DNA from: Arthrobacter sp. zg-Y238
GTDB taxonomy: Bacteria; Actinomycetota; Actinomycetes; Actinomycetales; Micrococcaceae
Assembly (NCBI RefSeq): GCF_024385525.1
Contig: NZ_JANFLU010000010.1
Coordinates: forward strand, 186,001 to 250,000
Direction of reading: 5' to 3'
Length of the DNA: 64,000 nt
The number at the start of each line of letters is the position of its first letter. Within the stretch, counting starts at the first letter, position 1. A model generated the notes under the pieces. The model was not told where the DNA came from. It saw nothing but the letters and a program-made list of their open reading frames with translations, and searched no databases. Shown here piece after piece: positions 45,639-58,502 of the stretch. Made by a program: the position numbers and the translations under genes.

Positions 45639-45668
45639 GAACCGTTACCCCAAGGAGGTGTGCTGCGT

Positions 45669-46283
45669 ATGAACGACGGCACTCTGGAGTCCATCCCCGC
45701 CATCGATGCCGCAGCCCTCGGCCTCCTCTTCCGTGACGCGCGCACGGTCTCGGAATTCACTACGGCCGCTGTCACAGACGAGCAGCTTCAAGCCATCTAC
45801 GACTTGACCAAGATGGGTCCGACGGCGATGAACATCCAGCCGCTGCGGATCACCTGGGTGCGTTCCGCCGCGGCTCGGCAGCGGCTGGTGCAGCACATGG
45901 CAGAAGGCAACAAGGCCAAGACAGCCGAGGCTCCCATGGTTGCCGTGCTGAGCTTCGACCGCGACTGGCCGGAGCATTTCCCCACCGTTTTCCCGCCGGC
46001 TCCGCAGCAGGGTGCAGTCTTTGCCGCCAACCCGGAACTGAGTGCCGTGATGGGCAATGACAATGCGCATCTGCAGGCCGGCTACTTCCTCTTGGCAGTC
46101 CGCGCACTGGGCCTGGCCGCGGGGCCGATGGGCGGTTTCGACGCCGCCGGGCTGGATGCCGACCTGCACGCAGGCCTGAACCTGCAGTCCTTCCTCGTCG
46201 TCAACATCGGTGTGCCTGCCGGCGGGCCACGCCACCCGCGGCTGCCTCGACTGGATTACGCGACGGCGACCGCCGAACTCTAG
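45669..46283 (+). CDS. Nitroreductase-family protein, malonic semialdehyde reductase (RutE)-like
   Basis: 204 residues from ATG 45669 (AAGGAGGT 9 nt upstream). Nitroreductase FMN-binding features: FRDARTVSEFTTAAVTDEQLQAIYDLTKMGPTAMNIQPLRI, and NAHLQAGYFLLAVRALGLAAGPMGGFD near residue 120-150. The wording matches RutE/malonic semialdehyde reductase proteins, which reduce 3-oxopropanoate with NAD(P)H. No other rut gene is nearby, so it may serve another aldehyde or quinone. It is convergent with the TetR gene. Confidence 0.85.
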   Translation: MNDGTLESIPAIDAAALGLLFRDARTVSEFTTAAVTDEQLQAIYDLTKMGPTAMNIQPLRITWVRSAAARQRLVQHMAEGNKAKTAEAPMVAVLSFDRDWPEHFPTVFPPAPQQGAVFAANPELSAVMGNDNAHLQAGYFLLAVRALGLAAGPMGGFDAAGLDADLHAGLNLQSFLVVNIGVPAGGPRHPRLPRLDYATATAEL

Positions 46284-46333: not shown

Positions 46334-46948
46334 TTAAGCCTCGCCGCAGAGCAGGTGGTGCCAGCTGTCGGCAAGCACCTCCAGGGCGTGCTCACGGTTC
46401 GGTTCGAACTTCCGGCGCGTCCAGAGCGTTGCCACATAGTCCAGCTGCGTAAAGGCAAGGGTTCCGCGGATGTGACGGGTCTCTTCTGTGTAGCGTCCGG
46501 CCAGCTGCAGTCCGGTGACTATGTCGGAGATGACTTCCTCATGCCACGCGTCCATGATTTTCCGGATTTCCGGATCTGAGGCTGCCGCCTCATCCAGCAC
46601 ATCGAGGTAAGGCCGGAACACCGGCCACAGGGCTGCCCGCGATTCGAGCCAGGCGAGGATGCCGGGCAGCTCCCCGACCCGGACGACGGCGACCAGGTCC
46701 ACGGCGGTGGAGGTGCTGCCCGGCCCCGCGGCACGCTCCAGGACGGAGTTCACGCGGCTCATGAAATCCTTCATGAGGTCAGTGCGCGAAGGGTAATACG
46801 CGTAGAAAGTCACACGCGTGGTCCCGGCAGCTGAGGCAATCTCGTCAATCGTCGTCGACGCGTACCCCTTGGCTGTGAAAAGCTCCAAGGCGCAGTCGAC
46901 AATCCGGTCCCGCGTCAATTGTTTCTGGGCTTCACGGAGCGACGACAT
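46334..46948 (-). CDS. TetR/AcrR-family regulator of the P450 operon (predicted)
   Basis: 204 residues from ATG 46948. The HTH is YASTTIDEIASAAGTTRVTFYAYYPSRTDLMKDFM (about 28-62). It is the last gene of the minus-strand operon P450-ferredoxin-reductase-TetR, 20 nt after the reductase stop, so it is likely autoregulated with that operon. The two 17-bp palindromes between the P450 gene and the divergent PTE-like genes are the best candidate sites for it. The inducing ligand is unknown. Confidence 0.88.
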   Translation of the reverse strand: MSSLREAQKQLTRDRIVDCALELFTAKGYASTTIDEIASAAGTTRVTFYAYYPSRTDLMKDFMSRVNSVLERAAGPGSTSTAVDLVAVVRVGELPGILAWLESRAALWPVFRPYLDVLDEAAASDPEIRKIMDAWHEEVISDIVTGLQLAGRYTEETRHIRGTLAFTQLDYVATLWTRRKFEPNREHALEVLADSWHHLLCGEA

Positions 46949-46968
46949 GAATCCCACCCTAACAGCGG

Positions 46969-48153
46969 TTATCGCCCCGCCGGCACCGGGGACCGAAGCG
47001 CGTCCGGGCCGATATTGGCCAGCCGCCGAAGCTTCGGAATCGGGATGCGGTAATTGACCGCAACGGACGTCCCCGAGCCGCCCGGGTGGGCCCACCGCAG
47101 GAGCATTGAGTTTTCCGCTCCGCCTGCTTCACGGAATTCGGGCGGGCCGGTCAGGGGTGTAAAGCCGACTGATTTCAGTGCCAGGCCGAACCCTTCCGTC
47201 CAGAAGTAGGGCTGGAAGTCATGTTCGGGAGCCTCGTCTCCGCGGAGCAATCCCAACGCCGCGGTTTTCGCCTGGTCGATAGCGCTGGTCCAGAGAGGAA
47301 CCCTCTCTGTGCCCCGACGGGTCGGGAAGACGGCCACGTCCCCGGCAGCCACAATGGACGGCCCCACCCGTCCCCGTGAATCCGTGTGCAGCACGCCGTT
47401 CGCCAGGAGTCCGGATCCGGTGAGCCAGCCGGTGTTCGGCTCATCTCCGATGGCCGTAACCACCAGTTGGGCTTCCAGGACCGTGCCGTCGGCCAGGACT
47501 ACCCGCGTCCCCTCGCCGGCGGACAGCAAAGATGCCCTGCCGCCCGCCACTATCCGCAGTCCGCGGCCAACGGCGGCGGATACAAAGAGCTCGGACAGAT
47601 ACCCGCCGAGTTGCCGGATAAGGGGCGGGCCGTCCGAAACCAGGGTGACCTCACAGCCGGCCTGCACGCAGCCCGAGGCCACTTCCATCCCGAGCGCACC
47701 GCCGCCGATGACGATGACCGACGGACGCGCTGCCACGCGCTGTTTCAAGGCAACGGCGTCTTCCAAGGTGCGCAGGGTCAGCTCCTGCGCGGGCATACCC
47801 GCCTCGGCCTCCGGAGAAAGCCGCCTTGCCCGGGAGCCGGACGCAATCACCAGCCCGTCGTAAGGCAGTGTTTCTCCCCCGGCCAGCCGGACGACCTGCG
47901 CCTCCGGATCCAGTCCCGCCGCGCTGACCCCTCTCAGTTCGGTGGCCCCATGCGTAGGGTGCGGCAGCTCGTGGGCAGTGCTTCCACCCTCACCGTGCAG
48001 CAGGGCCTTAGACAGCGCGGGGCGGCTGTAGGGACGGTGCACCTCGGAGCCCACCACCGTCAACTCGCCGTCGAATCCCGCCGAACGCAGGGAATCACAG
48101 GCAGTCAGCCCGGCGATGCCGTTGCCGACGACGACGACGCGGCGCATCCTCAC
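46969..48153 (-). CDS. FAD-dependent ferredoxin reductase (P450 electron transfer)
   Basis: 394 residues. FAD motif VVVVGNGIAGLTACDSLR at the N terminus, NAD motif VIGGGALGMEVASG (about 145-158) and the second FAD motif VAAGDVAVFP. It passes electrons from NAD(P)H to the adjacent ferredoxin for the P450. Unlike typical rubredoxin/ferredoxin reductases, its tail (about 340-394) is basic and short. Its start overlaps the ferredoxin stop by 4 nt. Confidence 0.9.
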   Translation of the reverse strand: MRMRRVVVVGNGIAGLTACDSLRSAGFDGELTVVGSEVHRPYSRPALSKALLHGEGGSTAHELPHPTHGATELRGVSAAGLDPEAQVVRLAGGETLPYDGLVIASGSRARRLSPEAEAGMPAQELTLRTLEDAVALKQRVAARPSVIVIGGGALGMEVASGCVQAGCEVTLVSDGPPLIRQLGGYLSELFVSAAVGRGLRIVAGGRASLLSAGEGTRVVLADGTVLEAQLVVTAIGDEPNTGWLTGSGLLANGVLHTDSRGRVGPSIVAAGDVAVFPTRRGTERVPLWTSAIDQAKTAALGLLRGDEAPEHDFQPYFWTEGFGLALKSVGFTPLTGPPEFREAGGAENSMLLRWAHPGGSGTSVAVNYRIPIPKLRRLANIGPDALRSPVPAGR

Positions 48154-48341
48154 GAAGCCAGCTTCAGGGCGGCAACCGGGCAGATCCGAACGGCCGCCTG
48201 CGCGGCTCCCATGTCCCCCTCGTCCACCTCAGGGACATCGATAATGAGCTCGCCGTCGTCGTCGAGATGCATCAGGTCGGGGGCGACCTCTTCGCACAGT
48301 CCATGGCCTTCACAGCGCGGCCGGTCCAGTTCGATCTTCAT
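48150..48341 (-). CDS. [3Fe-4S]-type ferredoxin
   Basis: 63 residues. Cysteines at 10, 16 and 54 (CEGHGLC ... ICP) give three ligands, consistent with a [3Fe-4S] ferredoxin of the P450-partner type. Acidic surface (EVDEGDMG) suits docking to redox partners. It overlaps the P450 gene and the reductase gene by 4 nt each. Confidence 0.95.
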   Translation of the reverse strand: MKIELDRPRCEGHGLCEEVAPDLMHLDDDGELIIDVPEVDEGDMGAAQAAVRICPVAALKLAS

Positions 48342-49742: not shown

Positions 49743-50777
49743 GTGAGCCACTTCGCAGGCGCCGACGCCGCGTCCACATCCACCGGTACCCTGGGCGTCA
49801 ACGGCCCAGGTAATATTCCGGGGGCTCTGGCCAACACCGTCCTGGGTCCCGTACCCGCCGCAGACCTGGGTGTTGTCGCCGTTCACGAAGCACTCCTCTC
49901 GGTGGTTCCGGGAGCGGAGCATGCCCCGGATATCAGCATGGACCGGGCCGAAATCTTCGAAACCCTTGCCGGGAAGCTGACGGACTTCCGGAAACACGGC
50001 GGCGGCGCCGTCGTCGACAGCACCGGCATGTTCCACGGCCGGGATCTTCCGCTGTATGAGGCCCTGTCCCGGGCAACCGGCGTGCATATCATCGCCTCCA
50101 CCGGCATGGGGCCTGAGGAAATGCTCGGCGGCTACTTCCTGACCCCGCAGACCAACCCGCCCACGCCGTGGCCGGCGGACAAGTTCGCGGATCTCTTCTC
50201 CAAGGAGGTCACCGAGGGCATGGTGGTCCCCCGGGTTGAGCGCCGGGGCGCCGCCGGTCTCGTAACCACGGCCGCGGCCCGTTCCGGCATCACCCCCACC
50301 GAGGAAAGCCTGTTCCGCGGCGCCGCCAAGACTTCTCTGGCCACCGGTGTTCCGGTGTCGATCCGCTTCGGCACCGACGCGGTTGGCGAACTGGACCTGG
50401 TCCTGGCGGAGAACCTTCCGGCGGACCGCGTGCTGGTCGGCGGTCTGGACCGCAAGGACGCCGCCGGTGCCGCCCTCGAGGTGGCGCGCCGCGGCGCCTT
50501 CGTCGGCATCGACCATGTGGGTTCCACCGGCGGGGACGTCATCGACGACGAGTCACGGGCCGCCCTGGTCCTGGAACTGGTGCAGGCCGGCCATGCGGAC
50601 CGGATCATTCTCTCCGCCAACGCCGTCGGCGTCGCCAAGGGCCAGCCGGACTACGACGTGCCGTACAGCTATGTCCTGTCCACGTTTATGCCGCTCCTCT
50701 CGGCCAGGGGCCTCAGCGATGAAGATGCCCGGCGCATTCTCACTGATAATCCGCACGCCCTGCTAACGGTGCGCTAA
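49743..50777 (+). CDS. Phosphotriesterase-like protein lacking its metal ligands (pseudoenzyme)
   Basis: 344 residues from GTG 49743 with AAGGAGAG 4 nt upstream. The barrel aligns along its length with the intact homologue at 50832. Of the six metal ligands only the first is left: VHEA (His48; second His is Ala50), T175 for the bridging Lys, R208 and G234 for the two middle His, N293 for the final Asp. An N-terminal extension of about 30 residues precedes the barrel. It may regulate or form a heteromer with the next protein, or bind a ligand without catalysis. Confidence 0.85.
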   Translation: MSHFAGADAASTSTGTLGVNGPGNIPGALANTVLGPVPAADLGVVAVHEALLSVVPGAEHAPDISMDRAEIFETLAGKLTDFRKHGGGAVVDSTGMFHGRDLPLYEALSRATGVHIIASTGMGPEEMLGGYFLTPQTNPPTPWPADKFADLFSKEVTEGMVVPRVERRGAAGLVTTAAARSGITPTEESLFRGAAKTSLATGVPVSIRFGTDAVGELDLVLAENLPADRVLVGGLDRKDAAGAALEVARRGAFVGIDHVGSTGGDVIDDESRAALVLELVQAGHADRIILSANAVGVAKGQPDYDVPYSYVLSTFMPLLSARGLSDEDARRILTDNPHALLTVR

Positions 50778-50831
50778 AAGCCGTGCGGCAGCGATGACCA
50801 TAAAAGCTTTCTATTCTTTGAGGTGTAGGCA

Positions 50832-51785
50832 TTGGCAAAGGTAAACACGGTACTAGGCACCATCCCGGCCGAAGAGCTGGGCATAGTGGCAGTCCACGAG
50901 CACATCGGCTACGGCATGCCCGGCAGCGAACTGGACTCCACCTGGTGGAAGACGCCGGAGCAGCGGTACGCGGAAACCGTGCCGAAGCTGCGGCAGTTCC
51001 ATGAATACGGCGGCGGCACCTTCGTGGATGCGACCGGCATCTGCAACGGCCGCGACGTCGACTATTACAAGTCCCTCTCCGCCAAGACAGGTGTCCACAT
51101 CGTGGCCTGCACCGGCTTCGTCGGCGGGGACACCGCGCTGCCGCACTTCGCCCGGGCCAGCGTGGAATACCTGGCCGAGGTGTTCATTCATGAAATCACC
51201 GTGGGCATCGGCACCACCGGCAGCAAGGCCGGCGTGATCAAAGTGGGCGTCAGTCGCGGCGGGCGCATGACCGAACTGGACAAGCGCATCTACCGCGCCG
51301 CCGCCCGCGCCTCAGTGGCCACCGGTGTACCGATCCTCACCCACCTGGCCATCGACCCGCAGCCGGCCATCGACATCTTCGCCGAAGAGTCCCTGCCGCT
51401 GGACCGTGTCCTCTTCGGGCACGCCGACGACGGCCTCAACGCAGAGAACACCCCCAGCGAATGGATCATGGGGCAGGGCGGGCGCATCGGCTTCGACACC
51501 TTCGGCTACGAGACCGAGCTCCCGGACCCGCCCTTCTGGGCCCGCCCCCGCAAGGAGCGGCTGGACCACTTTATGTCCTTGGTGGAGAAGGGGCACCTGA
51601 ACCAGCTCCTGGTTTCCGCCGACGCCAACTGCAGCCCGCTTGGCTGGCCCGGAGTGAAGGGCCACACCGTGAACTACATCTTCGAGGACCTGATCCCCGA
51701 CCTGCGCGGTGCCGGTCTCGATGAAGCAGCCATCAAAACCCTCTTCATCGACAACCCCGCCGGATTCCTTTCCATCTCCTCCTGA
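50832..51785 (+). CDS. Phosphotriesterase-family metal-dependent hydrolase (lactonase-like)
   Basis: 317 residues from TTG 50832. All binuclear site residues are present: His22 and His24 (VHEH), Lys137, His171 (LTH), His197 (FGHADD) and Asp264 (SAD). This family contains phosphotriesterases, lactonases and aryl-dialkylphosphatases; many native substrates are lactones. The pocket segment after Asp264 (ANCSPLGWPGVKGH) differs from classical phosphotriesterases. It follows its degenerate homologue by 54 nt and precedes the monooxygenase by 53 nt in one operon. Confidence 0.88.
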   Translation: MAKVNTVLGTIPAEELGIVAVHEHIGYGMPGSELDSTWWKTPEQRYAETVPKLRQFHEYGGGTFVDATGICNGRDVDYYKSLSAKTGVHIVACTGFVGGDTALPHFARASVEYLAEVFIHEITVGIGTTGSKAGVIKVGVSRGGRMTELDKRIYRAAARASVATGVPILTHLAIDPQPAIDIFAEESLPLDRVLFGHADDGLNAENTPSEWIMGQGGRIGFDTFGYETELPDPPFWARPRKERLDHFMSLVEKGHLNQLLVSADANCSPLGWPGVKGHTVNYIFEDLIPDLRGAGLDEAAIKTLFIDNPAGFLSISS

Positions 51786-51838: not shown

Positions 51839-52960
51839 ATGAAGACTTCCGAACTCAAAGACCTGAAGATCGCCATTGTCGGCGGCGGCTACGGCGGCGC
51901 GGCCGCAGCCATTGCCCTGCGGAACATCGGTGCCGGCAACGTCCACGTATACGAGCAGGCTCCCGCACTGGGCCAAGTGGGCGCCGGCATCGGCCTGCGC
52001 CCGATCACGGTTGAACTCTTCCGCCGGTGGGGCATCTTCGAGGAAATCGCTGCCGTGAGCTCGCCGAGCGACTACCTGGAAATCCTCAGCGCCGACGGAC
52101 AGCAGGTCTATGCGCAGGAAGTCTGGCCCCAGCTCAACGACTTCGACCAGCCGAACCACACCCGCATCATCCACCGGGGCGATTTCATTGACGCGCTCCT
52201 GGGCGTCCTGCCGGCCGAGATGGTGCACATGGGCCACAAGCTCACCGGCATCAAGGACGACGGCGATGCGGCGACCCTCACCTTCGAAAACGGAAACACA
52301 GTCACGGCCGATCTGGTGATCGGCGCCGACGGCATCCGTTCCTTGATCCGCAAGGAACTGTTCTCCGACAATGAACCGATCTTCGCGGGGGAACACGCTT
52401 ACCGGGCGGTCATCTCCGCAGACAATGCCTTCGGACTGGGAGTCGAGGACGACAACCCCCGCTTCTACATGGGTGACAACGGCACCATCGCCTACAACCT
52501 TCCGCTGCGCCACCGCAACCAGCTTTCCTACGACATCACCACCCGCTCCGAGGACGGCTCCTGGGCACCGGTTATCACCAATGACTACCTCGTCTCCCTG
52601 CTCGACGGCTTTGACGAACGCATTGTGGACATTGCCCGGAACCTGGACATCAGCCAGGTCACCAGCCGCTCCGTGTTCGACATCGATCCGGTGGATAACT
52701 GGCACACCGACAGCGTCGCCCTGCTCGGCGACTCGGCGCACGCCATGCTGCACCACCAGGGCCAGGGTGCGAACTCAGCCATCCAGGACGCCGCCGGGCT
52801 CGCGGATGCCCTGCTGCAGGCGGATTCCGTGAAGGAAGCCCTCACCCAGTACCAGGCCATCCGGAAACCGGTTACGGACGAACTGCAGCGCCTGTCACGC
52901 CTTGGCTGGAACCCCGGATCGGTGGAAACCGCCTTCCCCGAGCAGACCCCGGCGAAGTAG
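51839..52960 (+). CDS. FAD-dependent monooxygenase (salicylate hydroxylase-like)
   Basis: 373 residues. FAD-binding motif VGGGYGGAAAAIALRN near residue 14; DG motif VIGADGIRSLIRKEL (about 160-174); GD motif ALLGDSAHAMLHHQGQGANSAIQDA (about 295-320). Group A flavoprotein hydroxylase using NAD(P)H and oxygen on an aromatic or related ring. The substrate is not determined. It starts 53 nt after the hydrolase, with GCGAAGCA before the ATG. Confidence 0.88.
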   Translation: MKTSELKDLKIAIVGGGYGGAAAAIALRNIGAGNVHVYEQAPALGQVGAGIGLRPITVELFRRWGIFEEIAAVSSPSDYLEILSADGQQVYAQEVWPQLNDFDQPNHTRIIHRGDFIDALLGVLPAEMVHMGHKLTGIKDDGDAATLTFENGNTVTADLVIGADGIRSLIRKELFSDNEPIFAGEHAYRAVISADNAFGLGVEDDNPRFYMGDNGTIAYNLPLRHRNQLSYDITTRSEDGSWAPVITNDYLVSLLDGFDERIVDIARNLDISQVTSRSVFDIDPVDNWHTDSVALLGDSAHAMLHHQGQGANSAIQDAAGLADALLQADSVKEALTQYQAIRKPVTDELQRLSRLGWNPGSVETAFPEQTPAK

Positions 52961-53007: not shown

Positions 53008-53949
53008 ATGACCATTCATCCCGAAATCGCCAAGGTACTCCGCAGCATCCCGGCCCCTGACGGTTCGCCGCTGGATCCGGCGGCGATGCGGGCCGGCGAG
53101 GCCGCGCAGGTTCCGCCGCTCGAGGACCGGATTCCGCTGCACGCGGTTGAGGACACCATCGCCTCCACCGACGCCGGGGAGGTCCCGGTACGCATTTACA
53201 CACCCGTCGACGCCGACTCCTACGGGCTGATCGTGTACCTCCACGGCGGTGCCTTCTTCCTGGGCAGCCTGGACACCCACGACCACGTGGCACGCTCGCT
53301 GGCGAAGGAATCGGGCCACAAGGTCATCTCCGTCGGCTACCGGCTGGCACCGGAAGCCGCGTTCCCGGCTGGCCTGGCGGACAGCTACGGCGTGGTCCGC
53401 TGGGCCGCCGAGCAGGGCCAGGCCCTGAAGTGGAACGGCGGAACCCTTGCCGTCGCCGGTGACAGCTCGGGCGGGAACTTCGCCGCGGCTGTAACCGCCA
53501 TGGCCCGCGAGGACGGCTTCAGCGGAATCACGCACCAGATCCTGTTCTACCCGTCGCTGGACCTGGACTTCGACGTCGACCGTTATGCCTCAATGCGGGA
53601 GAACGCCGAGGGTTACGGCTTGGAGACCGCAGGGCTGAAGCCCTTCAACGCGTTTTACCTCGAGAACGGTGCTGACCCGGCGGACCCGCTCGTCTCCCCC
53701 ATCAAGCGTGTTGACCTCAGCGGCCTGCCGCAGGCACTCATCCTCACAGCGGAACACGATCCCCTGCGCGATGAGGGCGAACTGTACGGGCAGCGGCTCA
53801 AAGAAGCCGGCGTTGACGCAACCGTCCACCGCTACGCAGGGGCGAACCACGGCTTTGTTGCCAATTTCTCCTGGCTTCCGGAGTTCTACCGGGCCTTCCG
53901 GGAAGCCGGGGATTTCCTGAACGGCACCCCCTCCGACCGTCCCGCCTGA
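53008..53949 (+). CDS. Alpha/beta hydrolase, HSL-like esterase
   Basis: 313 residues. Oxyanion hole YLHGGAFFLG (near 78), nucleophile GDSSGG (about 150-157), Asp in AEHDPLRDEG and His in GANHGF near the C terminus. These mark the hormone-sensitive-lipase esterase family, which hydrolyses short carboxyl esters or lactones. No signal peptide. It follows the monooxygenase by 47 nt and precedes the MBL protein by 11 nt. Confidence 0.92.
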   Translation: MTIHPEIAKVLRSIPAPDGSPLDPAAMRAGEAAQVPPLEDRIPLHAVEDTIASTDAGEVPVRIYTPVDADSYGLIVYLHGGAFFLGSLDTHDHVARSLAKESGHKVISVGYRLAPEAAFPAGLADSYGVVRWAAEQGQALKWNGGTLAVAGDSSGGNFAAAVTAMAREDGFSGITHQILFYPSLDLDFDVDRYASMRENAEGYGLETAGLKPFNAFYLENGADPADPLVSPIKRVDLSGLPQALILTAEHDPLRDEGELYGQRLKEAGVDATVHRYAGANHGFVANFSWLPEFYRAFREAGDFLNGTPSDRPA

Positions 53950-53960
53950 GAGAGGCACCC

Positions 53961-54890
53961 ATGAGCAAAGGTACGGTTCACCCGCTGGTGTCCCCCTGGG
54001 GACGGTTTGGCCTCTACAGCTACTTCATCGATGCACCGGAGCCGGCGATCGTGGACACCGGCATAGGCTCCTCGCCGGCGGAGGGCATGATCCCCGCACT
54101 GGAGAAGCTGGGCCGGAGCATCGACGAGGTCCGCTGGATCCTGCTGACCCACGGCCACATCGATCACCTGGGCGGAGCGAAGGCCCTGTGGGAACTGACC
54201 GGTGGCAAAGCGAAGGTGGTAATCCACGAAGCCGACGCCCACCTGCTGCGGTCCCGCAAAGCGCACGTCGAAGAGTACGTGAACGGGCGCAGCAGGTACC
54301 TGAACGCGCCGGACGGCGCAGCAGCGCAGACCCGGACCACGCAGGCGGTCATTTCAGGCGAAATGGAACCGTCCGTGCTGGTGCGGGGAGGCGAAAAGCT
54401 GTCGCTGGGCGGGGACGTCACGGTCTCCGTGCACCATGTTCCGGGCCACACGGCCGGGTCCGTTGCCTACGAACTGGAGGGGGCCGCCTTTGTCGGCGAT
54501 GCCGTGCAGATCCACGGCGCGGCCAACCGGTTCCCCGGCTACGAGGATCCGGATGCCTACCGCTCCAGCCTGGAGTATCTGCGCGACGTCCTCCGTCCGG
54601 AGCGGCTTTACCTCGGCCACCCGTACCGTCGGACCGACGGCCGGGAGTACGGCGTCGAACTTGATCACCGGCAGGCACGCGAGGCGCTCCAGGAGAGCCT
54701 GGACATCGAAGGCCGGGTCCGTGCCGCCGTCGCCGGCTATCTGCGGGACGGCCTCCGGGAAACCGATTCGGTGTACTCCCCGTTCGAACGGGTGGCCGAA
54801 GAGCTCGCCTACCAGGGCGATCCCACGCTGGACCCGTCCCCCTTCTTCACTACGCTGCACGGGTACCGCACCCGCTTCGGCAATGCCTAA
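53961..54890 (+). CDS. Metallo-beta-lactamase-fold hydrolase
   Basis: 309 residues. The HxHxDH motif is THGHIDHLGG (near residues 54-63); further ligands are His in GHTAG, Asp in GDAVQ and His in LGHPY. Members include lactonases and thioesterases, and some hydrolyse acyl-homoserine lactones, but here no motif fixes the substrate. It is the fifth gene of the operon, 11 nt after the esterase gene, and 19 nt before the CocE-like gene. Confidence 0.88.
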   Translation: MSKGTVHPLVSPWGRFGLYSYFIDAPEPAIVDTGIGSSPAEGMIPALEKLGRSIDEVRWILLTHGHIDHLGGAKALWELTGGKAKVVIHEADAHLLRSRKAHVEEYVNGRSRYLNAPDGAAAQTRTTQAVISGEMEPSVLVRGGEKLSLGGDVTVSVHHVPGHTAGSVAYELEGAAFVGDAVQIHGAANRFPGYEDPDAYRSSLEYLRDVLRPERLYLGHPYRRTDGREYGVELDHRQAREALQESLDIEGRVRAAVAGYLRDGLRETDSVYSPFERVAEELAYQGDPTLDPSPFFTTLHGYRTRFGNA

Positions 54891-54909
54891 CGCAAGGAGC
54901 TACGCACTA

Positions 54910-56634
54910 ATGGCTACTACCCACCACATCGACGCGGGCGGACAGGCGATTCGGGTCGCCAAGGACCTCCGCGTGCCGATGCGCGACGGCGTCGAGCTGG
55001 CCGCGGACGTCTATTCCGGCACCGAAGACCGGCCCCGGCCCGCACTGGTCGCGCTGAGCCCCTACGGCAAGGAGCTGCAGGCCCTGGCCCTGACCATGCC
55101 CCCGCAGCGGCGGCCCAGCCCGATGTGGGACGGCTGCATCGAAGCGGGCGATATTGCCCGGATCGTGAAGGAGGACTATGCACACGTCATCGGCGACCTG
55201 CGTGGTTCCGGCGCCTCCGGCGGCGAACACATCGGCAACTACAACGCTGGCGGGGTTTCCCTGGGCCAGGACGCCTACGACTTCATCGAATGGGTTGCCG
55301 AACAGCCGTGGTGCGACGGCAACGTGGGCATGGTCGGCATCTCCTACTTCGGTTCCATGCAGGTCCTGGCCGCCGCCGAACGGCCCCCGCATCTGAAGGC
55401 GATCTTCGTTTCCGGCGGGCACTACGACTTCTACGAGACCACCTACCACGGCGGAGTCATGTGGTTCATGCCGCGCGCCGCCCGCGAGGGCCGCGGCGGG
55501 GATTCCGGCTGGGCGTTCACCGACCAGACCAAGTCCCGCATGCTTGAGACCTATTCCCCGGGCGAGCTGCAGAAACTCGTTGCAGCACGCCTGGCGGACC
55601 CGGACGTCGCAGCATGGCCCAACCTCGTGCACGTACTGAACTACCCCAAGCACCACGAGGCATGGTTCGACATTGTGATGAACGAGCTCGACGGCGACTG
55701 GTACGAGGAACGCAATCCCATCACCCTGGCCCCGAACATCGACATCCCGGTCTACCTGCAGATCGACCAGGGCCGCGGCTGGACCATGGACGGGACCATC
55801 GAGCTGTTCGACGCCCTGAAGGGCCCGAAAAAGCTGGACATCGGCCCCTACCCGCCGATGCAGTCCCGGCCCTTCATCGAGGAACACGACAAGATGTTCC
55901 GGTGGTACGACTACTGGATCAAGGGCATCGACAACGGCATCATGGACGAGCCCGAAGTCAGCGTTTTCGTGGAAGGTTCCCGCGAGCACGTCACCGGCAG
56001 CGCCTGGCCGCCGAAGGACGTTGAGTACCGGCCGCTGTACCTGCGCCCCCGGCGCAAGCTGTCTCCCGAACCGGAACCGATGGGTGCTGAGTACGCTGCA
56101 CCGGACGGCTTCTACCAGGCGCCGCTGACCGTGACGGACAAGGTGGAGATCCTGGACTGGAGCACGGATGCCTTCACCGAACCCACCGAGCTGATCGGCA
56201 CCGGCGCCGCGCACATTTTCGCCGAGATCGACCAGGAGGACACCAACTTCATCCTCCGGCTCTGGGACAACGCCCCCAACGGGAAACGCCAGCTCGTCAC
56301 CACCGGGTACCTGAAGGCCTCCCACCGCGAACTCGATGACCGGACCACGGAGGGCAACCCGCACCACCCGCACACGCGGGCCGTTCCCGTGGAGCCGGGC
56401 AGGATTGAGGAGTATGTGGTGCGGCTCTACCCGTTTGCCACGACGTTCCTCCCGGGCCACCGGCTGACCGTGGAACTGTCCAACGACGAACCGCTGGCGG
56501 ATGAGCACAATGCGCTGCTACCGCCGGATTCGTTCCACCTGCCGGTCGGCCGTCCGGTCACGCACAAGATCTACCGCGACGCAGCGCACCCCTCGCGGCT
56601 GGTGCTGCCGTTCACCCGGCGGTCGGCAGGGTAA
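54910..56634 (+). CDS. CocE/NonD-family hydrolase (X-Pro dipeptidyl-peptidase S15 type)
   Basis: 574 residues from ATG 54910. N-terminal alpha/beta hydrolase with the nucleophile elbow VGMVGISYFGSMQ; C-terminal jelly-roll domain (about 385-570) typical of CocE and glutaryl-7-ACA acylases. The usual GPW-x-H segment with the catalytic His is replaced by IGPYPPMQSRPFIEEHDK, so the His residue is not evident, although this wording may be common in an actinobacterial subgroup. It probably cleaves an ester or amide. Last gene of the operon before a strong terminator. Confidence 0.88.
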   Translation: MATTHHIDAGGQAIRVAKDLRVPMRDGVELAADVYSGTEDRPRPALVALSPYGKELQALALTMPPQRRPSPMWDGCIEAGDIARIVKEDYAHVIGDLRGSGASGGEHIGNYNAGGVSLGQDAYDFIEWVAEQPWCDGNVGMVGISYFGSMQVLAAAERPPHLKAIFVSGGHYDFYETTYHGGVMWFMPRAAREGRGGDSGWAFTDQTKSRMLETYSPGELQKLVAARLADPDVAAWPNLVHVLNYPKHHEAWFDIVMNELDGDWYEERNPITLAPNIDIPVYLQIDQGRGWTMDGTIELFDALKGPKKLDIGPYPPMQSRPFIEEHDKMFRWYDYWIKGIDNGIMDEPEVSVFVEGSREHVTGSAWPPKDVEYRPLYLRPRRKLSPEPEPMGAEYAAPDGFYQAPLTVTDKVEILDWSTDAFTEPTELIGTGAAHIFAEIDQEDTNFILRLWDNAPNGKRQLVTTGYLKASHRELDDRTTEGNPHHPHTRAVPVEPGRIEEYVVRLYPFATTFLPGHRLTVELSNDEPLADEHNALLPPDSFHLPVGRPVTHKIYRDAAHPSRLVLPFTRRSAG

Positions 56635-56646
56635 ACGGATACGAAA

Positions 56647-56691
56647 AACAGCAGAGGGCGGACACCGTATCGGTGTCCGCCCTCTGCTGTT
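56647..56691. terminator. Strong bidirectional terminator between the CocE-like gene and glpD
   Basis: A perfect 21-bp stem (arms 56647-56667 and 56671-56691) with a 3-nt loop, flanked by A-rich sequence on the left and T-rich sequence on the right. It separates the convergent genes. Confidence 0.93.
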
Positions 56692-56720: not shown

Positions 56721-58502
56721 TTAGGAAGCCAGCGCCGGGATCTTCATGCCGTGCATGGTGACCAGCAGCTCGCGGGCGAACTCAGCCTGGCGGCGCTTTT
56801 CGGCGTCGTCCCAGCCCAGCTGCGGGGCCAGCAGGTCCGCCAGCTCGGTCAGCATGGCTTCGGACACCAGGCCGCGGAAGGCCAGTGAGGTGCGGCGGAT
56901 CAGGATGTCGGCGAGCTGCGTGATCTGCTCGTTTTCCACCATGTAGGTCAGCTCGCGGGTGCTGAGCTCGTTGGTGGAGGCCAGCAGCTGGTCGCCGCCC
57001 TGGGACAGGAACTCCAGGACGTCGACGGCGCGCGTGCCGTAGCGGGTCAGCAGGACGCGGACGCGGTCACGGTCGGCCACGTCGGAGGCCATGCGGTTGA
57101 CCCACAGGCGTTCCTCGGCCTCGGTGCGCGGGAAGTCCTTGCCGCCGCCGATCTGCAGTTCCGCCGTCGTCGTCTTCCGCGGCATGCCCAGAGCGGTCAT
57201 CGCCTCGGTGGCCAGCGTCTCGGACAGCGCACGGAAGGTGGTCCACTTGCCGCCGACCAGGGACAGGCTCGTGACGTTCTTGCCGGCGCGGTTGTCCGTG
57301 CGCTTTTCCACGCGGTAGTCGCGGGACACGAAGCCGGGCTGCGTGTCGTCGTGCTTGGGCAGCGGGCGGACGCCGGAGAAGGTGTAGACGATGTGGTCGC
57401 GGCGCACGTCAACCGTGGGGAAGACGTGGGCGATCAGTTCGAAGAAGTACTCGATCTCTTCGTCGGTGCAGACCGATGCCTCGTTGATGTCCGCGTCGAT
57501 GTCCGTGGTGCCCACCAGGACGCGGTCGCCCATCGGGTAGATCAGGACGATGCGGCCGTCGGTGTGCTCGAAGAACATTTCGCGGCCGGAGCAGGCTTCC
57601 AGCAGTTCCGGGTGGTCCAGGACGATGTGCGAGCCCTTGGTGCCGCCCATGAAGCTGGTGCGCTTGCCGAAGGAGTCGTTGGTCTCGTCAACCCAGGCGC
57701 CGGTGGCGTTGATGACGACGTCGGCGTCGAAGACGAACTCTTCGCCGGTGACCTCGTCGCGCAGCACGGTGCCGGCGTCGGTGGTGCCGACGGCGCTGAC
57801 GTAGTTGCTGGCGCGGGACTGCGGGTTCGCCTCGAGGCCGTCGCGCAGCACGTCGAGGGTGAGGCGCTCGGGGTTGTGTACCGAGGCGTCAAAGTACGTA
57901 GCCGTGTACTTTACGTCCGGGCGCAGCTTCGGCAGTTCCTGCAGGGACTTCTTCTTGCCGACGAAGTTGTGCTTGGGGGCCACGCGGCCGCCGCGGGAGA
58001 AGAAGTCATACATCAGCAGGCCGGCCTTGATCAGCACGGCGCCGCGCTCGGTGTGCTTGCCCTGCTTGTGCGTCAGGAAACGCAGCGGAGCAGCAGTGAT
58101 GCCCGAGAAGGTGGTGGTGATGGGGATGGTGGTCTGCAGCGGCTTGACGTAGTGCGGGGCCAGCCGGAGCAGGGCGTTGCGCTCGACGACGGACTCGTGC
58201 ACGAGGCGGAACTCGCCGTTCTCCAGGTAGCGGATGCCGCCGTGGATCATGTGGGAAGACGCACCCGAAGCGCCCTGGCAGTAATCACCGCGCTCCACGA
58301 GGGCTACGTCCACGCCCTGCAGCGACAGGTCACGGAAGGTGCCGACGCCGTTGATGCCGCCGCCGATGATCAGCACCGAGGCCTTGGGCCGGTCCTTCAG
58401 CTGCTGTACCACCGGACGGGTCCGGGCGGCGGTCTTTGCCTTGCTGGGGTTCACGGAATTGTCCACGTATATCTCCAAACGCTTCTGTGGCTGCATTGCC
58501 AT
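56721..58502 (-). CDS. glpD: Glycerol-3-phosphate dehydrogenase (aerobic, FAD)
   Basis: 593 residues. FAD motif VLIIGGGINGVGTFRDLSLQG near residue 43, then GASGASSHMIHGGIRYLENGEFRLVHESVVERNALL. Catalytic domain ends with FSGVRPLPKHDDTQPGFVSRDYRV; the C-terminal domain (about 430-593) is the usual helical GlpD tail. It oxidises glycerol-3-phosphate to dihydroxyacetone phosphate and feeds electrons to quinone. The N-terminal 35 residues are an extra segment. Divergent from the SorC-family gene. Confidence 0.96.
   Translation of the reverse strand: MAMQPQKRLEIYVDNSVNPSKAKTAARTRPVVQQLKDRPKASVLIIGGGINGVGTFRDLSLQGVDVALVERGDYCQGASGASSHMIHGGIRYLENGEFRLVHESVVERNALLRLAPHYVKPLQTTIPITTTFSGITAAPLRFLTHKQGKHTERGAVLIKAGLLMYDFFSRGGRVAPKHNFVGKKKSLQELPKLRPDVKYTATYFDASVHNPERLTLDVLRDGLEANPQSRASNYVSAVGTTDAGTVLRDEVTGEEFVFDADVVINATGAWVDETNDSFGKRTSFMGGTKGSHIVLDHPELLEACSGREMFFEHTDGRIVLIYPMGDRVLVGTTDIDADINEASVCTDEEIEYFFELIAHVFPTVDVRRDHIVYTFSGVRPLPKHDDTQPGFVSRDYRVEKRTDNRAGKNVTSLSLVGGKWTTFRALSETLATEAMTALGMPRKTTTAELQIGGGKDFPRTEAEERLWVNRMASDVADRDRVRVLLTRYGTRAVDVLEFLSQGGDQLLASTNELSTRELTYMVENEQITQLADILIRRTSLAFRGLVSEAMLTELADLLAPQLGWDDAEKRRQAEFARELLVTMHGMKIPALAS

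Follow-up and report, generated by a model that had tools for sequence, protein, structure and literature searches.

Introduction

The phosphotriesterase (PTE) family serves as a standard model in the study of how enzymes evolve. Elsewhere in the amidohydrolase superfamily, some bacterial aspartate transcarbamylases contain an inactive dihydroorotase-like structural subunit that lacks a working metal site. These subunits share their superfamily with the degenerate protein described here, but their partner is an unrelated enzyme rather than a sister paralogue. The Rhodococcus 2-aminoisobutyrate hydroxylase, AibH1H2, is likewise an amidohydrolase-superfamily heterodimer, and the available part of its description gives it one catalytic and one structural subunit, with a loop of the catalytic subunit near the interface (PMC12141560). 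In these respects it is like the arrangement that we propose below. On the other hand, AibH1 keeps its metal, and the active subunit, an oxygenase, comes from a different family (PF4909 in the same text). Dead paralogues that activate a live subunit by forming a heteromer with it have been described for AdoMetDC and its prozyme in trypanosomes (PMC5201418) and for deoxyhypusine synthase (PMC3663545). As far as the available parts of these accounts go, both are other enzymes with other reactions and were demonstrated biochemically, whereas the heteromer discussed here is one that we infer.

Within the PTE family itself, the PTE-like lactonases SsoPox, SisLac and VmoLac are described as homodimers with the dimer interface beside the active sites (PMC3468530, PMC7084321), and the interface affects activity. 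The portions of these papers that are available mention no dead partner, which sets the lactonases apart from the arrangement proposed here. Enzyme–pseudoenzyme pairs are known, as is a superfamily heterodimer with a structural subunit, but in the open-licence PMC literature we found none for the PTE family. The same literature, searched mostly without full texts, gave no description of the gene pair or of the operon treated below; a paper on piperine catabolism has, in its available part, nothing on this cluster, and the word "phosphotriesterase" occurs there in the reference list only.

Here we describe a tandem of PTE-family genes in a 64,000-nucleotide stretch of an Arthrobacter sp. zg-Y238 contig (the window). 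We refer to the upstream gene, which has lost most of the metal site, as pse, and to its intact-looking downstream neighbor as cat. A pair that is widespread and has a metal site in only one protomer is a natural experiment on the role of the second protomer. If our reading of the pair is true, a hydrolase of this kind assayed alone may seem weak or dead, its partner being absent.

Two PTE-family genes at the head of an operon

The two genes lie on the same strand, 54 bases apart, and the GTG start of pse is closely preceded by aaaggagag (Table 1). Their products are 30% identical over 329 alignment columns, and both score well above the curated cut-off of the Pfam PTE model (PF02126; 126.3 bits for pse and 175.8 bits for cat as whole proteins, cut-off 22.4); Pfam reports no second domain in pse. 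Both fall below the cut-offs of the NCBIfam equivalogs OPH (cat 104.3, pse 57.1, cut-off 500), PRK09875 (cat 104.7, pse 85.4, cut-off 486) and phospho-furanose lactonase (cat 59.3, pse 56.2, cut-off 630). The best profile matches of cat are parathion hydrolases and phosphotriesterases. Its ligands are, in almost the same numbering, the set given for SisLac in the available text (His22, His24, Lys137, His170, His199, Asp256), and all three lactonases named above belong to the same family as pse and cat. In the whole genome (3.5 Mb in 20 contigs), the PTE model matches two places, which are pse and cat.

When 83 PTE-family proteins are aligned, cat has HHKHHD and pse has HATRGN at the six ligand columns. 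By the criterion that a catalytic member has H, H, K (or E), H, H and D at these columns, cat is a catalytic member and pse, with five of the six lost, is not. Every entry in the residue table of the initial annotation is correct when checked against the alignment columns, and its central observation, that five of six metal ligands have gone while the frame is kept, holds for reading frames that run as listed in Table 1. Could the loss be a general trait of the family? This was ruled out by 39 other PTE-family proteins from the fetched genomes, 36 of which have HHKHHD; the remaining three deviate at the Lys column only, with Glu there or one residue away. Glu for Lys at this column is a known variant.

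The pair opens a conserved six-gene operon of hydrolases and a monooxygenase. The nearest solved structures to the FAD monooxygenase are 6-hydroxynicotinate 3-monooxygenase and tropone 2-monooxygenase, and the start of the CocE/NonD-type gene is uncertain, as the frame stays open farther 5'. Upstream and divergent lie a P450, whose nearest solved relatives are CYP199, and its neighbors; the TetR frame overlaps the reductase gene, and its true start is probably internal to the frame. The matches in Table 1 are tblastn matches anywhere in the sequence stretch of each locus, and the counts for the TetR, P450 and reductase genes are approximate, because some loci end at contig ends and because, for TetR and the reductase, a number of the matches are weak and may be to other genes.

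Table 1. Features of the pse–cat locus (positions in the window). Match counts refer to the best 80 of 132 loci.
Feature	Coordinates	Strand	Remarks
TetR-family regulator	46334..47095	-	match in 64 of 80 loci
Ferredoxin reductase, pyridine nucleotide-disulphide type	46969..48153	-	match in 56 of 80 loci
Small ferredoxin-like ORF (by eye)	48150..48341	-	63 aa; overlaps ends of P450 and reductase genes; tblastn match in 60 of 81 sequences (window and best 80 of 132)
Cytochrome P450	48338..49510	-	divergent from operon; match in 57 of 80 loci
pse, phosphotriesterase-family pseudoenzyme	49743..50777	+	344 aa; GTG start; H48/A50/T175/R208/G234/N293
pse loop 3 codons (residues 123-144)	50109..50174	+	GPEEMLGGYFLTPQTNPPTPWP; 16 of 22 positions invariant in 81 proteins
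pse alpha3-beta4 turn codons (residues 159-172)	50217..50258	+	GMVVPRVERRGAAG; second conservation peak
cat, predicted intact phosphotriesterase-family hydrolase	50832..51785	+	317 aa; TTG start; H22/H24/K137/H171/H197/D264
FAD monooxygenase	51839..52960	+	373 aa; match in 80 of 80 loci
Alpha/beta hydrolase, hormone-sensitive-lipase type	53008..53949	+	match in 80 of 80 loci
Metallo-beta-lactamase-fold hydrolase	53961..54890	+	match in 79 of 80 loci
CocE/NonD-type hydrolase	54880..56634	+	match in 79 of 80 loci
20-bp stem	56647..56691		terminator-like on both strands; 3' of last operon gene

What does the operon do? With a P450, a flavin monooxygenase, four hydrolases including cat, and aromatic-ring genes nearby in some hosts, it probably encodes a catabolic pathway, presumably a route for an aromatic or heteroaromatic compound. 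Gentisate-type genes are found within 10 kb in 25 of the best 80 of 132 loci and beta-ketoadipate-type genes in 17–18, the loci with such aromatic catabolism genes including L092, L098, L112 and L067, L078, L111; a transporter-like gene, recognized by eye, is present in 45. These recurrent neighbors come from a coding-score gene call and were named by eye from their first residues. An actinobacterial pathway seems to lie behind the conserved operon. We found no description of it in the open-licence PMC literature, and its substrate can be sought.

Several other features of the neighborhood may be recorded. The metallo-beta-lactamase-fold match is on the strand opposite to the operon in ten of the best 80 of 132 loci (L036, L037, L041, L049, L058, L062, L068, L074, L077 and L085). 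Beyond the stem in the window is a convergent gene (56721-58502) that appears by eye to be glycerol-3-phosphate dehydrogenase-like. At the other end, a nitroreductase-family gene (45660-46283) scores above the NCBIfam cut-off for malonic semialdehyde reductase and was matched near the pair in only one of the best 80 loci.

Occurrence and retention of the pair

How constant is the pair? The initial annotation would have been refuted by relatives that carry the first gene only as a broken frame, or by two proteins that never occur together; neither result appeared in the genomes searched. A scan of one genome per species with two pse peptides (residues 90-97 and 120-127) gave 132 confirmed pse relatives, of which the best 80 were read. 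By their record labels these 80 fall into 17 genera, Arthrobacter (31) and Streptomyces (21) being the commonest. (The record of L090 is titled as a Rhodococcus MAG and filed under a cyanobacterial genus in the taxonomy table, probably by a labelling slip.) In all 80, cat is directly downstream of pse on the same strand. Three of them have cat in pieces, with short frames (<280 residues) in L059 and L107 and an apparent insertion in L069, and pse is open in all three. When nine pairs were aligned, the eight others from the genus or family were 73–77% identical to the window in pse and 81–92% in cat.

Profile searches of 395 family genomes gave 44 with a pse-grade match (E below 1e-100) and, in a separate search with a cat profile, 44 with cat; the handles of the positives are the same, and the identity of the two 395-genome samples is taken from their equal size and handles. 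Both genes are present in these 44 genomes and neither in the other 351, and in none does one occur alone. The sole split pse among the 44 pairs is that of G149, which falls into two overlapping frames (L174:508-1673) next to an open cat. In a class-wide sample, cat was found in 5 of 394 genomes, that of the window and four others, each time with pse upstream, and in a phylum-wide sample of 396 genomes the only pse-grade match besides the window's own was in G465.

The state of the genes is as uniform as their order. In the window and the best 80 of 132 relatives, all 81 pse frames are open and all 81 proteins have the ligand pattern H-A-[AT]-R-[GDEA]-[NGSR], with H48, A50 and R208 invariant; invariant positions number 96 out of 344. 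The cat proteins of at least 280 residues from the same set, which leaves out L059 and L107, have HHKHHD without exception (79/79). The degenerate copy is under purifying selection by its dN/dS, a check that the initial annotation had suggested: the median is 0.27 (range 0.08–0.58) for pse and 0.22 (range 0.01–0.39) for cat, over the 2996 of 3081 locus pairs with dS of 0.1–1.2 in both genes. By these medians pse evolves somewhat faster than cat. The values come from the simple Nei–Gojobori method, in which the codon bias of GC-rich genomes would be expected to raise dN/dS. Since 81 frames are open and dN/dS is low, random decay and sequencing error are rejected. Open frames, uniform ligand losses, dN/dS well below 1 and strict co-occurrence together bear out the earlier view of pse as a retained non-catalytic paralogue, and they indicate that pse and cat have been kept together under purifying selection since the sampled copies diverged.

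The upstream copy had already lost its metal site when the sampled copies began to diverge. A quick maximum-likelihood tree, built from 22 of the 81 pse, 22 of the 79 cat and 39 other PTE-family proteins (83 rows), has pse as one clade (SH-aLRT 100) and cat as another (99), and the two are sisters (92). Because the stems are long (1.73 and 1.44) and long branches were flagged, the sister relation is likely, not certain; there is moderate support for pse and cat being sister lineages of the phosphotriesterase family. The simplest history would be a tandem duplication, after which one copy lost its metal site.

Where the constraint lies

If pse has no metal site to protect, which parts of the barrel are held constant? 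Conservation was averaged per structural element, with the secondary structure taken from a predicted AlphaFold2 model. The extreme values in pse are 0.987 for loop 2, 0.966 for loop 3 and 0.953 for the alpha3-beta4 turn; loop 1 has 0.883. Loops L4–L8 are relaxed, with a mean of 0.794 (L7 0.675, L8 0.807) that is lower than for the other loops of the catalytic face. In cat, by contrast, conservation extends across all of the catalytic-face loops, with a mean of 0.944 for L4–L8 and 70 of 104 positions invariant. The contrast between the two proteins is reached in 2 of 313 circular shifts, counting the unshifted one, for a contrast that was defined after the conservation of the elements had been seen. 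Because the scan peptides covered residues 90-97 and 120-127, conservation is overstated in loop 2 and where loop 3 begins; outside of these peptides, residues 128-144 are invariant at 14 of 17 positions in the 81 proteins (window and best 80 of 132). The loop 3/alpha3 stretch is eight residues longer in pse than in cat (35 vs 27), which is not an unusual length in the family: 39 other members have a median of 33 and a range of 27–38.

In the SisLac profile alignment, with numbering matched by hand, S53, H98, G123 and P124 of pse align to V27, L72, Y97 and I98 of SsoPox. According to the available text of PMC7084321, these SsoPox residues line an inter-monomer groove that joins the active sites. 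In the related lactonases this dimer groove is bordered by loops 2 and 3.

The most divergent pair is L194 (genome G927). Its pse frame is open over 321 codons and lacks stretches of L6, beta7, L7, alpha7 and L8, and its ligand columns read HVSRNG, with H48 and R208 retained. Compared with the pse of the window, loop 3 is identical at 19 of 22 positions and the alpha3-beta4 turn at 13 of 14. Loop 2 is identical at only 6 of 9, with H98, G123 and P124 changed and the GRD motif kept. An intact cat adjoins this eroded copy, and there are matches to all of the operon and to the P450 set as well. L194 is one genome in about 850 contigs, and no second eroded pair was found in 58 genomes around G927 (G927 included). 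It nevertheless makes the strongest case that pse may work through its loop 3/alpha3 region, not through the former active site.

A proposed heteromer of dead and live subunits

Because many other actinobacteria keep both genes adjacent, pse probably works as a partner of the live enzyme and is not a gene in decay. We consider the chances somewhat better than even that the two proteins make up a single hydrolase, an enzyme–pseudoenzyme heteromer with pse as its dead and cat as its live subunit. In such an assembly, pse would bind cat through the face formed by loops 1–3, which PTE-like lactonases use to form their dimers, and the invariant loop 3 would sit at or over the mouth of the cat active site, where pse could stabilize cat or set its substrate range. 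As the sole holder of a metal site, cat would hydrolyze an ester or lactone intermediate of the operon pathway. The alpha3-beta4 turn is on the opposite barrel rim from loops 1–3, so that an interface through these loops leaves the conservation of the turn unexplained. Against a groove interface, too, are the changes at H98, G123 and P124 in L194, where loop 2 keeps only 6 of 9 residues; the ordinary length of the loop 3/alpha3 stretch also counts against the heteromer reading; and a pure scaffold role for pse is strained by the invariance of H48 and R208, which even L194 has retained.

Co-divergence offers moderate support for the pairing. Over the 73 of 80 loci in which all six operon genes were called, pse–cat is the pair whose distances correlate best among the 15 possible pairs of operon genes, with r 0.86 and a partial r of 0.75 once the other four genes are accounted for (next pair 0.35). 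When one locus was drawn per genus (16 genera), pse–cat ranked first in 134 of 200 draws; it falls outside the top three when Micrococcaceae are removed, and likewise within Streptomyces. AlphaFold2 models of the pair as one chain have well-predicted barrel cores, with pTM 0.52 for the window (72 rows) and 0.53 for L087 (106 rows), values at which the relative placement of pse and cat is not predicted. Parts of pse loops 1, 2 and 3, including much of loop 3, and parts of the alpha3-beta4 turn are of low confidence in the window model. Foldseek matched the joined model to phosphotriesterases, the best being 9ti1 (dPTE2; TM 0.83 by target length), and the bacterial phosphotriesterases among the fold matches are about 30% identical.

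What else could pse be? The fact that H48 and R208 are invariant (81/81 in the window and best 80 of 132), and are kept with GRD in L194, could mean that these residues and the GRD motif of loop 2 do work of their own, either in a metal-independent activity or in binding an intermediate in a remodelled pocket, in which case pse would be a neighbor of cat in the pathway rather than its subunit. Loop 2 is near-invariant as well, in part via the choice of search peptides. However, the pocket-shaping loops L4–L8 are on average the least conserved of the catalytic face, L194 does without pieces of L6–L8 and beta7 beside an intact cat, and an independent enzyme should sometimes occur without cat, which it does in none of the 395 family genomes; we regard this explanation as unlikely. 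Relaxed pocket loops also weigh against a sensor or regulator that would, for example, relay an inducer signal to the TetR protein. A TetR match in 64 of the best 80 loci is what such a role would lead one to expect, but some of these matches are weak and maybe not orthologues, and in the other 16 locus stretches TetR is unmatched whereas cat is never missing. As Pfam finds no second domain in pse either, a sensor is improbable. The initial annotation had offered both a heteromer partner and a ligand sensor as guesses; loop conservation, L194 and co-divergence make the partner the better supported of the two and the sensor the less likely.

Another enzyme of the operon might instead be the one that needs pse as a subunit, for example the flavin monooxygenase or a hydrolase other than cat. 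Every one of the best 80 loci has matches to the monooxygenase and to the lipase-like hydrolase, and without Micrococcaceae the pse–monooxygenase pair (partial r 0.29) is in the top three of 15 and pse–cat is not. Over all 73 loci, however, no other operon gene comes near cat in its co-variation with pse, and cat is a sister paralogue from a family whose PTE-like lactonases, in the accounts available, are dimers, so that we give this proposal little chance. Least of all do we expect pse to be a relic on its way out that is kept for its position between promoter and operon. Its evolution is faster than that of cat, its frame is split in G149 and pieces of its barrel have gone in L194, yet 81 of 81 frames are open with 96 of 344 positions invariant and dN/dS well below 1, and at the same loci where two cat frames are short no pse frame is; decay of this kind is very improbable.

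The heteromer reading can be extended to a PTE-family enzyme that works only as a dead/live heteromer and is kept in many actinobacteria, with a dead barrel that is shrinking to an interface module, an invariant loop 3 that completes the active site of the partner, and a tandem that has arisen at least twice. For this whole combination the odds appear to us to be rather worse than even, and it is offered as tentative.

Other tandems in the family

The order of a dead first and a live second gene seems to have arisen more than once in the PTE family. An unrelated tandem in G017 (L171:1566-3706) has a first PTE-family member with R/H/P/D/R/S at or near the ligand columns, the degenerate N-termini of such members aligning poorly, and a second member that is intact in its Glu variant (HHEHHD). 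A similar tandem with a degenerate first member is present in G111 and G133 (L177, L178, L187, L188). The first member was matched in 10 of 295 family genomes, and the tandem in the three just named (3/295). In addition, G386 has two tandem PTE-family genes on the minus strand (L172:1663-4340), one reading HHEHHD and the other with Asn in place of an expected metal-binding His.
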